Under the pieces are notes generated by a model. The model made no database searches. It was not told the DNA's origin and saw only the letters and a program-made list of their open reading frames with translations. A stretch of 64,000 nt of DNA from Thiotrichales bacterium (GTDB lineage: Bacteria > Pseudomonadota > Gammaproteobacteria > Thiomicrospirales > Thiomicrospiraceae), in NCBI GenBank assembly GCA_016936535.1, contig JAFGXP010000003.1, positions 62,001-126,000 on the forward strand, read 5' to 3'. Position 1 is the stretch's first letter, and each line of letters starts with the position of its first letter. Of the stretch, positions 27,000-62,650 are shown piece after piece. The position numbers and the translations under genes were made by a program.

Positions 27000-27794
27000 A
27001 TGAACATATCAATCAGTGCCCTGCTGGGTTTTACCCTTGGCTTAGGGCTGTTTATCCTGTCGATTGTACTCAATACCGACAACTACTTAATGTTCTTAAG
27101 CTTATCAAGCTTACTGATGGTGACGGGTGGCACCATCGCTGCGGCAATGATTTCTTACGATGGGCGTTATGTGACGCTCGCTTTCAAAGAATTGTTGTTT
27201 ACGATGGTCAGTACCAAGGTCAACCCGATTAAACTCTATGAAGATGTGGGTATTTTAATTGACTGGTCAAAAATCATTCGTAAGCATGGTCTGGTAAAAC
27301 TGGAAACCTTAATTACGCTTCCAGAGGAAGGACAGAGCTTTTTAAATCAATCTATTGTCTTTCTTCTCTCCGGCTACAAGGGGCCGCACCTCTACAGCTT
27401 GCTGCAACACTCGCGCGAATCCATTTATGAAAGCAATATGCGTCCGGCGAAAGTACTTCTCACCATGGCCACCACCGCTCCGGCTTTTGGCATGGTTGGT
27501 ACCTTAGTCGGTCTGATTATTATGCTTAACAGCATGGAAGGCGATCCCTCGAAAATTGGCAGCGGTTTGGCGGTCGCACTGCTCACAACGTTATATGGCG
27601 TTTTACTGGCGCATTTACTGTTTAAACCCGCTGCACGCAAACTGGAACACAAGCAGGATTTAGAAGCGCAACGCAATCAAATTCTCAGTGAGGGCATTGT
27701 TCTGCTGTCCGAAGGTGCCTCTCCCACACTCATCGAGGACACCATGAACTCTTATCTTCACCCCAAATATCAATTTCGCCGTGCCGAACGCTAA
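27000..27794 (+). CDS. PomA/MotA-family flagellar stator protein
   Basis: This 264-residue membrane protein is the ion-channel A subunit of a flagellar stator. Four membrane segments are visible (about 5-24, 31-50, 152-174, 187-207). The helix-3 proline occurs in TTAPAFGMVGTLVGLI, and the LTTLYGVLLAHLLFKPAARK ending of helix 4 is typical. The basic/acidic cytoplasmic loop lies between helices 2 and 3. The partner B subunit follows after 15 nt. The short N terminus is more like the sodium-type PomA than proton-type MotA, but ion choice is inference. No flagellar genes lie near. Confidence 0.88.
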   Translation: MNISISALLGFTLGLGLFILSIVLNTDNYLMFLSLSSLLMVTGGTIAAAMISYDGRYVTLAFKELLFTMVSTKVNPIKLYEDVGILIDWSKIIRKHGLVKLETLITLPEEGQSFLNQSIVFLLSGYKGPHLYSLLQHSRESIYESNMRPAKVLLTMATTAPAFGMVGTLVGLIIMLNSMEGDPSKIGSGLAVALLTTLYGVLLAHLLFKPAARKLEHKQDLEAQRNQILSEGIVLLSEGASPTLIEDTMNSYLHPKYQFRRAER

Positions 27795-27809
27795 CCGGAG
27801 CCGCCGTGG

Positions 27810-28511
27810 ATGGAACAAGAACCGCTCAGACCCTATCAACCCACTCCATTAAAAAAATCCAAAGAAGAGGAGGATGGCAATGAATGGCTGATTACTTACG
27901 CCGATGCCATGACATTGATTTTAGGCTTTTTTGTCTTAATTCTTTCCATGTCGATTATCAATCAAAGTAAATTTGCCGACGTCTCAGAAGCCATTGCTCA
28001 AGGGCTATTAAAAAAGGAAGTTCCGCTTATAGAATCGCCTTTCAAAGCCTTAAACACGCGTCTGAGAAACACCTTGATTGAATACGATATTTTGCCAGAG
28101 CAGGCGTTAATGCAAGAAAAAGACTCACTGAAAATCGATCTGCCCGGTCACATTCTATTTGCCACGGGTTCATCGCAATTGCAACCGTCTTCTCAGCGCC
28201 TGATTGCCGATCTGGCACGCGATATCCGCGCGTTTGATTTGCAGGATTTTTCCATTGAAATTGAAGGGCACACCGACGACATTCCAATACAAACGGAACG
28301 CTACCCCTCGAACTGGGAGCTGTCCTCCAGCCGAGCGATTCAAGTATTGCAGGTGTTTTTAGAACAAGGCGTGGACGGCAACAAACTTAAAGCGATTGGT
28401 TATGCCCAAACGCGTCCCAAAGTGCCAAACCGAGAGGCCAACGGCCAAGCGCTGCCAGACAATCAACAGCTCAACCGTCGAGTTGAAATTAAAATCGCGC
28501 GCAATCTCTAA
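27810..28511 (+). CDS. PomB/MotB-family stator protein with OmpA domain
   Basis: This 233-residue protein is the B subunit that anchors the stator to peptidoglycan. One membrane helix (about residues 28-50) carries the ion-binding Asp32 in ITYADAMTLIL, at the same position as in E. coli MotB. A periplasmic OmpA-like domain (about 110-230) shows IEIEGHTDDIPI, YPSNWELSSSRA and a NRRVEIKI ending. ATG 27810 follows pomA closely. It converges on rlmH with an 8-nt gap and no terminator. Confidence 0.9.
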   Translation: MEQEPLRPYQPTPLKKSKEEEDGNEWLITYADAMTLILGFFVLILSMSIINQSKFADVSEAIAQGLLKKEVPLIESPFKALNTRLRNTLIEYDILPEQALMQEKDSLKIDLPGHILFATGSSQLQPSSQRLIADLARDIRAFDLQDFSIEIEGHTDDIPIQTERYPSNWELSSSRAIQVLQVFLEQGVDGNKLKAIGYAQTRPKVPNREANGQALPDNQQLNRRVEIKIARNL

Positions 28512-59943: not shown

Positions 59944-60324
59944 ATGCGTACACAAGACCATGACGTTATTTACATAGAAGGCTTACAAACCACTGCCATC
60001 ATTGGCATTTATGACTGGGAAAGAGCGCAAGCGCAACCGTTGATATTTGATGTCGAAATGGCCGTACCCTTGTTTACGGCTGCCCGTAGCGACCGCATTG
60101 AAGATACCGTGGATTACAAAGCCGTTGCCGACTTTATCGGCGATTGGGTCTCAACCAGTCGTTTTGAGTTATTAGAAGCCTTAATGGACAGTCTGTGCCA
60201 AGCGCTCTTTACCGAGTTTCCAGCCATCTTGCAGCTGGACATCAAAGTTGGCAAACCGCAAGCGGTTGCCCAAGCGCGCACAGTGGGGTTACAGCTTCGC
60301 CGCAACAATCCCCAAATACCTTAG
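59944..60324 (+). CDS. folB: FolB, dihydroneopterin aldolase
   Basis: FolB cleaves dihydroneopterin in folate synthesis. The 126-residue protein has DVIYIEGLQTTAIIGIYDWERAQ with the usual GIYxWER, DTVDYKAVADFI, and the catalytic-lysine region LDIKVGKPQAVAQA. The tsaD-plsY-folB neighbourhood is typical. It ends 7 nt before the stop of the convergent FliG-like gene. Confidence 0.95.
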   Translation: MRTQDHDVIYIEGLQTTAIIGIYDWERAQAQPLIFDVEMAVPLFTAARSDRIEDTVDYKAVADFIGDWVSTSRFELLEALMDSLCQALFTEFPAILQLDIKVGKPQAVAQARTVGLQLRRNNPQIP

Positions 60325-60331
60325 AAGTGCC

Positions 60332-60793
60332 CTAGAGTGAATTTTGCAGCTGCTTCTGCTCTTGAGCAGCCTGCTTAATTAATGGAATCAACTGCTCCAT
60401 ATAGAGGCAGGCATGGGCTTCGCTGATCCGGTTCATCTGTGCAAAGTCCTCTGCAAACTGGCGCTGATTTTGTCGAGACAAATTACGCAAAATCTTGTGA
60501 TAAAGTGCATCGCTGCTGGCCAGACGGGCCAAAGTGACCAAGGGTTCCGCCGCTACCATCGGTGCAAATTTCTGCACCACCCGATCATCGACCAGCCCCA
60601 TCTTATCGGCCAGCGCACGATAGGCTTTGAGCTTGTGCTGCAACGCGGCATGACTGCTTGCCTCACCAGAACTCAAACCCTGATGAATCGCCTGATACAA
60701 CTGCTCAACCACCGACAACGGCAGGGTAAACGTGACCGAGCCAAGCAGTAAATTCAGCGCACCGGAATCATCGTGCTTTGCAGAAATTTCCAT
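60332..60793 (-). CDS. FliG C-terminal-domain-like protein, copy 1
   Basis: This 153-residue helical protein has no signal or membrane segment. Residues about 80-140 (AAEPLVTLARLASSDALYHK, then ILRNLSRQNQRQFAEDF) follow the pattern of the FliG C-terminal torque domain: E-x-L-x-x-x-L-x-x-A-S, then I-L-x-N-L-S and E-D. The N-terminal part (LPLSVVEQLYQAIHQGLSSGE) is shared with the next gene product. It is not a full FliG (about 330 residues). It has no flagellar neighbours. ATG 60793 has GGGAG upstream. The function is unknown; a role in motility or surface sensing is inference. Confidence 0.6.
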   Translation of the reverse strand: MEISAKHDDSGALNLLLGSVTFTLPLSVVEQLYQAIHQGLSSGEASSHAALQHKLKAYRALADKMGLVDDRVVQKFAPMVAAEPLVTLARLASSDALYHKILRNLSRQNQRQFAEDFAQMNRISEAHACLYMEQLIPLIKQAAQEQKQLQNSL

Positions 60794-60898
60794 AACATTC
60801 TCCCACTTGGATAAAAACCGCCTCTCGGCCATGCTCATGTTTTTGGTGAAGTCATTATTTATTTAAAGACCCGTACAATCTCTAAATACCTTCAATCT

Positions 60899-61363
60899 CT
60901 AAATATAACGGGTCTGTTCGTTGACCCACTCAATGACCCCTTTTGCCTCTAGCTCAAAGACTTTTTCCATTAAACGGCGTATGGCCGCTTTCGCCTCGTC
61001 TTCGCTTGGCAAAGCTGGTGATTTCAAATCGTCTTGAATTTGGCGAGCCAGGATGGCGCCACTGTTTTGCAATACGGCATGCGTTAAACTTTCATCTGCC
61101 GCCAGACGTAACAATACGCTGATATCCGCACTCGCCACCTCCCGTAATCCTTTTTGCAAGTCTGCCGCACTCAGCTGCTTGAGCCGCAACCCCAGCTTAA
61201 GGTAACTTTGCAAAGTCGAATGCTGTTCTCCGCGCTCCAGCGCCAACAGATGTTCAAGCGTAATGTCCAATAACGCCAAACTAAAGTGGTCCAACGGAAT
61301 ACTGGCGCAACCTATTTGCACCAGCCACTCATTTTCATGCCGTTTTTTTAAGCCGACTTGCAT
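60899..61363 (-). CDS. FliG C-terminal-domain-like protein, copy 2
   Basis: This 154-residue protein is a tandem paralogue of copy 1. Residues 73-147 (LREVASADISVLLRLAADES, N100, QIQDDL at 108-113, VFELEAKGVIEW) align well by eye with the E. coli FliG C-terminal domain (REV-S, A-x-x-x-L, L-x-N, DDL, L-x-x-x-G). The front half (IPLDHFSLALLDITLEHLLA) matches copy 1 in pattern. ATG 61363 has AGGAG about 7 nt upstream; a longer frame to 61411 is not supported. It is separated from copy 1 by 105 nt and probably is cotranscribed with it. Confidence 0.65.
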   Translation of the reverse strand: MQVGLKKRHENEWLVQIGCASIPLDHFSLALLDITLEHLLALERGEQHSTLQSYLKLGLRLKQLSAADLQKGLREVASADISVLLRLAADESLTHAVLQNSGAILARQIQDDLKSPALPSEDEAKAAIRRLMEKVFELEAKGVIEWVNEQTRYI

Positions 61364-61459: not shown

Positions 61460-62650
61460 ATGGCCAACCCAAAAAAACTCCCCATCCCCACGGATGATGC
61501 CAAAGCACTCAGTGAACAACTCACTCAGAAAATCCGCACGCACCTCAAGCGCAGTAGTCAACCAATGCGCTTCTCTCAGTTTATGGAAGCGGTGCTCTAT
61601 ACCCCAAACTTGGGTTACTACAGCAATTCACTCCCCAAAATTGGCAGCGAAGGCGATTTTATAACGGCGCCTGAAGTGTCGCCGATCTTTTCGCGCTGCC
61701 TAGCACGACAAGCAAAACAAGCATTAGAACAACTAAGCGAACCCAATATTGTCGAATTTGGGGCGGGACGAGGCCGAATGGCGGGGGATATTCTACGAGA
61801 ACTTGAACGCCTCAACCAACCGCTAGAACGCTACTACATTATTGAAATCAGTGCCGAGTTACAGCAGCAGCAGCAAGCTTACCTGCAATCAACGCTTCCG
61901 CAGCATTTGTTTGCCAAGTTGTCATGGCTATCAAAACTGCCGAGCCAACCGATTCGCGCCGTTGTGCTCGCCAATGAGCTTTTGGATGCCATGCCGTTCG
62001 AGCGCCTGCGCATTGAACCGGATCGAGCCTTGCAGGCCTACGTTACCTTTAACGAACAAAGCCAACGCTTTGACTGGGATTACCAACCGATTACCGAGCC
62101 TTCGATGCAACGCTTTGTAAACCAACTGATTAAGCATTTAGGCAAGGTGTCTGATTTAGGATACGAAACGGAAATTAACCTCAACATCGGTCCTTGGCTC
62201 AAAGCCGTCAGCGACAGCTTAAGTCAAGGTTTAGTACTGCTGATTGATTACGGTTATAGCCGCCAAGAGTATTATCAACCCGCTCGGGTCATGGGTACTT
62301 TACGCTGTCACTACCAACATCGCGCGCACCAAAACCCTTTTTTCTACCCAGGCTTGCAGGACATTACCGCACACGTTGACTTTACAGCCGTGGCTGAAGC
62401 GGGGTTTGATGCTGGCTTTAAAATCGCCGGCTATACCACACAAGCGCATTTTTTAATGGGCAGTGGCTTATTAGACATGGCCATAGACCCCGATGCCGAT
62501 ATCACCGAACAAATTCGCCTCGCTCAACAAATCAAAACCCTTACCTTGCCAGATGAAATGGGCGAAACCTTTAAGGTTATGGCACTGACTAAGCAACTGG
62601 AAAACAGTTTAATGGGCTTTAGCGTTCGCGATTTGCGCCATCAACTCTAA
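61460..62650 (+). CDS. SAM-dependent methyltransferase, MidA/NDUFAF7 (COG1565) family
   Basis: This 396-residue protein has the family's IRTHLKRSSQPMRFSQFMEA start, SEGDFITAPEVSPIFSRCLA, the SAM motif IVEFGAGRGRMAGDIL, the VVLANELLDAMPFERL block, and VLLIDYGYSRQEYY. Eukaryotic NDUFAF7 methylates an arginine of complex I; the bacterial substrate is not settled. ATG 61460 is a natural start. It lies between folB and uppP on the plus strand, divergent from the FliG-like pair. Confidence 0.92.
   Translation: MANPKKLPIPTDDAKALSEQLTQKIRTHLKRSSQPMRFSQFMEAVLYTPNLGYYSNSLPKIGSEGDFITAPEVSPIFSRCLARQAKQALEQLSEPNIVEFGAGRGRMAGDILRELERLNQPLERYYIIEISAELQQQQQAYLQSTLPQHLFAKLSWLSKLPSQPIRAVVLANELLDAMPFERLRIEPDRALQAYVTFNEQSQRFDWDYQPITEPSMQRFVNQLIKHLGKVSDLGYETEINLNIGPWLKAVSDSLSQGLVLLIDYGYSRQEYYQPARVMGTLRCHYQHRAHQNPFFYPGLQDITAHVDFTAVAEAGFDAGFKIAGYTTQAHFLMGSGLLDMAIDPDADITEQIRLAQQIKTLTLPDEMGETFKVMALTKQLENSLMGFSVRDLRHQL

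Follow-up and report, generated by a model that had tools for sequence, protein, structure and literature searches.

The window, by which we mean the whole 64,000-nt stretch of DNA that was analysed, is part of contig C2 of a 2.12-Mb draft genome that is 97.5% complete. Two tandem open reading frames (ORFs) on its minus strand, separated by 105 bases in the ORF list of the window, encode the small proteins that we named A (60332-60793, 153 aa) and B (60899-61363, 154 aa), each assigned as a FliG torque-domain protein from ORF, Pfam, profile and model evidence. The torque-domain part of A comprises residues 60-147 (60353-60616, minus strand), as delimited by Pfam (62-146) and by structural alignment with FliG (60-147), and that of B comprises residues 57-146 (60926-61195, minus strand), as delimited by Pfam (61-145), a profile match to the FliG structure 1qc7 (61-146) and alignment with the FliG chain 8ucs_H (57-145). 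These parts are preceded by an N-terminal segment of residues 1-43, predicted to form three strands and the start of a long helix in A (60665-60793, minus strand) and three strands and a helix in B (61235-61363, minus strand); both assignments come from the lower-confidence portion of the models and from the profile alignment of A with B. The pair is flanked by a gene convergent with A (59944-60324, plus strand), presumably folB, and by a gene divergent from B (61460-62650, plus strand), which we take to encode an NDUFAF7-like methyltransferase. A first-pass annotation, made from the sequence alone, had described two tandem proteins of about 150 residues lying by housekeeping genes and outside any flagellar cluster, and both the ORFs and their surroundings agree with that description. 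No significant PHROGs match was obtained for the pair and no plasmid match for B.

Neighbourhoods of the pair were compared at 43 loci, several of which represent one genome taken twice. The methyltransferase gene adjoins B in 38 of them and folB adjoins A in 36, with two further loci running off the contig, and the remaining five are the stator-linked loci described below. Function was not read from the window neighbours (folB and the NDUFAF7-like gene), a clue that we rejected given that in five relatives the pair sits elsewhere, beside motA-motB. One A protein, that of genome G022 (L060:1501-1941), has a TAA stop at the end of the match and, at 146 aa, is shorter than its relatives.

Sequence comparisons related both proteins to the C-terminal domain of FliG, as the first-pass annotation had proposed. 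The Pfam FliG_C model matched B with 29.8 bits (30.3 in the genome search; cut-off 23.3) and A with 22.3 bits, just below the cut-off (22.5 in the genome search), and orthologues of A and of B from other genomes scored above it in the family search. Profiles of 27 B and 31 A sequences, searched against solved structures, both retrieved FliG, with 1qc7, the C-terminal domain of T. maritima FliG, as the best match (E = 5.9e-8 for B and 4.1e-5 for A), and the B profile also picked up genuine FliG in other genomes. The REV...DDL motif, initially read in both proteins, is literal in B; A carries only a degenerate PMV...EDF. The remainder of FliG is missing, as had been claimed: neither FliG_N nor FliG_M matched A or B (Pfam, E up to 1), and the full-length equivalog TIGR00207 gave 14.6 bits for A, against a cut-off of 226.7, and nothing for B. 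There was likewise no Pfam match in either protein to PilZ (E up to 1) or to MgtE_N. The N-terminal segment that the two proteins had been said to share is indeed common to them, with residues 1-131 of A aligning to residues 1-127 of B in a profile-profile comparison (probability 97.5%, E = 6.4e-12), and by this sequence criterion the homology of A and B extends over almost the entire length of the two proteins, N-terminal segment included. In a poorly resolved tree of the torque domain (85 columns) A forms one clade (100/99), and so does B once the misread L121 row is set aside; the FliG rows of L121 and L124 represent a wrong ORF in both this and the FliG tree, and L114 has a very long branch in the latter. 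We conclude that A and B derive from the FliG torque domain, and we do not file them as FliG because its features besides the torque domain were looked for and not found.

The predicted structures are in line with this origin. AlphaFold2 models had a mean pLDDT of 82.9 for B and 82.5 for A (the alignment for A comprised 22 rows and left out L086, which has no start codon, and L094, which is cut by a contig end), with the torque-domain part modelled best and the first 40-50 residues less confidently; block values in the N-terminal segment were 68, 72, 75 and 59 for A and 59, 65, 76 and 80 for B. Foldseek ranks 1-14 for B and 1-16 for A were all FliG, at modest E-values (best 4.9e-3 and 1.1e-2, none below 0.001), and VIA-align gave Z-scores against FliG of 13.8-11.5 for B and 10.6-8.9 for A. 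With 8ucs_H, a FliG piece solved bound to MotAB, B aligned at Z 12.9 and an rmsd of 1.6 over 88 of 88 residues, and A at Z 9.7 and an rmsd of 2.3 over 86 residues. Two FliG chains (3hjl and 8umx_B) align to A via the FliG middle domain and not the torque domain. After the FliG-derived chains, the next VIA matches were MgtE (Z 4.8) for B and DnaK (4.8) and MgtE (4.5) for A; an MgtE-like or unrelated helical protein was rejected on this gap in fold scores and on the sequence profiles. A fold other than that of FliG, which would have spoken against the original proposal, was not seen. Because the Foldseek E-values are modest and, according to the aligner's warning, chance alone can take helical models to Z near 13, we take the match of the models to FliG as support rather than proof, needing the sequence evidence beside it. 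The first 40-48 residues weakly match PUR repeats (5fgo_F, Z 4.3, and 8chw_B, 4.0, for A; 3n8b_B, 3.2, for B), and no known family was established for the N-terminal segment. The fixed tandem arrangement and these weak fold matches suggest, as a guess, that this segment could pair A with B.

The bacteria that carry the pair are sulfur oxidisers. Both A and B are present in 55 of the 62 genomes of the family (46 of the 50 good ones), and an order-level search with the B profile returned the same 62 genomes. At class level (369 genomes, including at least four of the family; E up to 1e-6) the profile matched three family genomes and fifteen others; fourteen of these fifteen matches lie in a frame of 336-358 aa, a FliG-like length, and one in a frame of 237 aa at a contig end. 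Outside the family, the B profile, which was the sole query of this wider search, found only full-length or contig-edge FliG among the 369 class genomes. A contig scan with a single peptide pattern yielded 23 loci, in Thiomicrorhabdus, Thiomicrospira, Hydrogenovibrio, Sulfurivirga or higher groups that contain them. Two genomes without the pair, G016 and G040, probably lack the locus in their assemblies, because the neighbouring methyltransferase gene is gone too and completeness is 85% and 79%. No pair was found in the four genomes of genus g2 (G001-G004), where the methyltransferase gene is located elsewhere. The FliG tree places g2 and the other genomes on two sides of one branch (92/88), a topology with which a gain of the pair after the g2 split or a loss in g2 would both be compatible.

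The distribution of the pair is tied to that of flagella. Among the 55 pair genomes, 51 encode full-length FliG, 51 encode FliM and all 55 have a MotB plug domain; three (G020, G035 and G048) have the pair but neither FliG nor FliM, and these are 84-88% complete with three or four MotB plug genes each. G053, a complete genome of 1,932,455 bases that is putatively Thioalkalimicrobium cyclicum ALM 1, is the sole complete one without a match to FliG, FliM or the MotB plug, and A, B and the membrane protein C introduced below are all absent from it; folB and the methyltransferase gene are direct neighbours there (L147), with the pair missing between them. This strain is described as non-motile in the available part of its report (PMC4891895). 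The aflagellate state of G053 represents a single loss event. The four flagellated g2 genomes have FliG, FliM and MotB yet no pair, and because these genomes of one genus do without it, the pair is not essential for flagella. A wide occurrence in organisms lacking flagellar genes, which would have weakened a flagellar role, was not seen in this survey.

A more specific connection comes from five Thiomicrospira genomes (G052, G054, G055, G059 and G060), in which B and then A lie directly behind motA-motB on the same strand and not at folB. In 5/5 genomes of this branch the spacing between motB and B is -4 to +20 bp and that between B and A is 8-18 bases, and the motA-motB-B-A block occurs in three flanking contexts (G052/G060, G055/G059 and G054, judged from ORF translations). 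Pfam confirms MotA_ExbB, MotB_plug and OmpA in two of the five genomes, and the MotA proteins of the other three group tightly with these. The linkage holds in 5 of the 55 pair genomes and is absent at the window's own locus and at most loci of the family. Binding of the rotor and competition with FliG had been named in the first-pass annotation among the possible roles; this gene linkage points to the stator side instead.

Stator genes are numerous in the family: genomes that match the MotB plug domain carry between one and seven such genes (e.g. L152, L212, L213, L225, L228, L246-L250). We sorted the stator sets into classes with names of our own: they lie in the fli cluster, beside genes that we take to be parC-like/moeB-like, panBC-like or aspC-like (class V being the set beside aspC), and next to the pair. 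The window itself contains a divergent MotA/MotB-like pair (27000-28511, plus strand; 264 and 233 aa); it clusters loosely with PomA-type stators, and its MotB plug domain scores 60.2 bits. A strict link between A and B and PomA-type stators was considered and rejected, as G017 (99% complete) has the pair and its three MotB plug matches belong to other classes. Among the genomes without the pair, G001, G002 and G004 are also without PomA-type sets, and G003 (81% complete) shows two matches.

A third protein enters through gene fusion. In three of the four Sulfurivirga-type genomes (G017, G019 and G020) a membrane protein of ~295 aa has at its C terminus a FliG_C-like domain (24.6 bits), which in G017 matches the B profile at 1.4e-15 and which groups with B in the torque-domain tree (91/91). 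The first 180 residues of the fused protein correspond to a separate protein in other genomes, here named C; this is a conserved membrane protein whose gene follows apaH at the listed loci (examples are L165:3762-4397, minus strand, and L125:931-1806, plus strand). C is matched in 59 of the 62 family genomes, the exceptions being G018, G036 and G053; G053 retains apaH and the genes upstream of it but not C, and a tblastn search with three C sequences against the stretches examined returned nothing. C has a hydrophobic stretch of about 50 residues, which we interpret as a pair of transmembrane helices, and the libraries scanned gave no convincing family match for it. Because C and a B-like domain are fused in three Sulfurivirga-type genomes, the usual gene-fusion argument suggests that C and B-like domains work together. 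With three independent lines of evidence (the pair found, in this family, only alongside flagellar or stator genes and lost together with them in G053; the motA-motB-B-A block; the fusion to C), the contact with the flagellar motor raised at the outset gains support, and we consider it likely that A and B act on this motor.

The residues of the torque helix indicate what such an action might be. According to the available portion of PMC6079164, FliG R281, D288 and D289 are the residues of first importance in Salmonella, where the contact of FliG D289 with MotA R90 serves stator assembly and that of FliG R281 with MotA E98 serves torque. The FliG reference kept R281 in 24/24 segments and D or E at the D289 position in 24/24. 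The alignments A1 and A2 contain 31 and 27 distinct sequences, respectively, out of 53 each. In A, R281 is kept in 0/53, the D289 position is D or E in 52/53 and the D288 position in 44/53, the K264 position is R or K in 51/53 and the R297 position is T or S in 52/53. In B, R281 is kept in 0/53 and D289 is D in 53/53, the D288 and K264 positions are mixed, and the torque helix has lost the greater part of its charged face. The fused Sulfurivirga domain has also lost R281 and D288. On the stator side, the pair-linked stators, like the other stators of the family retrieved by the search pattern, have an arginine followed at a distance of eight residues by a glutamate, within the loop of R90 and E98 in E. 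coli. Judged from these alignments, the residue pattern fits a domain that would dock on the stator without taking torque; retention of D289 may also reflect a role in folding.

Taken as a whole, we propose that A and B are stator-docking accessory proteins of the flagellar motor, derived from the FliG torque domain, a reading to which we assign a probability of roughly 50%; that they act on the stator at all we hold to be an even bet. In both proteins, a small strand-strand-helix segment would replace the FliG domains that bind FliF and FliM, and because those domains are missing, A and B should not sit in the rotor ring as FliG does. They would instead dock on the cytoplasmic side of stator units (MotA/PomA), outside the rotor, possibly as A:B partners. 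What we infer for a docked stator is that it would be held without torque, and either fed to the motor or kept idle as a spare; recruiting and restraining seem to us about equally plausible. C may tether such a torque domain near the membrane.

This proposal sets the pair apart from known systems in several respects. With FliG, A and B share the sequence and predicted fold of the torque domain and the acidic D289 position, and they differ from it in size (153-154 aa), in the absence of FliG_N and FliG_M, in the new N-terminal segment, in the loss of R281 and R297 and in being encoded outside the fli cluster, with a full FliG also present in 51 of the 55 pair genomes. Should A and B guard stator units, or deliver them, ahead of entry into the motor, they would work like FlgX, the Campylobacter jejuni stator chaperone that protects MotA/MotB from FtsH (PMC6686046); the likeness is one of function, and no FliG torque domain is described for FlgX in the accessible part of that source. 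YcgR and the stand-alone PilZ brakes (MotI, MotL) are likewise small accessory proteins at the stator-rotor interface, as presented in the available portions of PMC10140304, PMC12713396 and PMC8203827, whereas A and B have no PilZ match. The cytosolic domain of MgtE has a distant likeness in fold (VIA Z 4.8 for B and 4.5 for A), far below the values of up to 13.8 and 10.6 reached with FliG.

Among the other explanations, the one that survives best, though we regard it as unlikely, is that A and B are rotor-side proteins, packed against FliG, FliM or one another at the C-ring edge, and that they alter switching or ring width. Helical domains mediate the packing between FliG subunits, and a paralogue consisting of a free torque domain could behave likewise, in keeping with the co-occurrence of the pair with flagella and with the alignment of the A model to the FliG middle domain in 3hjl and 8umx_B; against it stand the size of only 153 and 154 aa and the absence of a FliG_N or FliG_M match, and the linkage seen is with motA-motB and not with fliG, fliM or fliF. 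Somewhat less probable still is service to another ion-driven rotary complex, such as the extra MotAB-like sets represented by class V and by the divergent set of the window. The abundance of MotB plug genes, several of them outside flagellar clusters, would leave room for this, but class V is also present in the pair-less G001, G002 and G004, the pair-linked set is an ordinary MotA/PomA-MotB set by Pfam, and G053 lacks the pair along with FliG, FliM and every MotB plug gene. A role outside the motor, as a general scaffold or in signalling, with no more than the helical fold retained from FliG, would suit the usual locus beside housekeeping genes (38/43 loci) and the loss of most charged contact residues in B, but it is improbable, as the loss in G053, the motA-motB-B-A block and the C fusion would then be three separate links with motility that all arose by chance.

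The stator-docking reading can be carried one step further, to a doubtful picture in which C and A:B form a docking complex near the membrane that displays rotor-like FliG torque domains and grips stators outside the rotor, a parking or loading site built by copying the stator-binding domain of the rotor minus its torque contact. If this were true, bacteria with several stator types would choose through this complex which stators enter the motor.

No named family for the pair was found in Pfam, NCBIfam or PHROGs, and in the literature searched, from which subscription papers were mostly excluded, neither FliG torque domains as proteins of their own nor a pair of this kind in the order are described, a silence that we regard as weak evidence of novelty. 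The domain itself is known; what appears to be new is that it makes up two separate proteins, each with a new N-terminal segment, alongside a complete FliG and linked to stator genes. In the literature examined, the FliG torque domain is known only as a part of the rotor. Here, a lineage keeps it as two small proteins in which the torque contact is dropped and the stator-assembly contact is kept, and which in one branch are part of the stator operon. The pair may thus be a natural case in which one interface has had its two functions separated, and C adds a third candidate motility gene, one that the scanned libraries leave unannotated. Stator recruitment, stator exchange and the choice among several stator sets would become testable in these bacteria by simple deletions.
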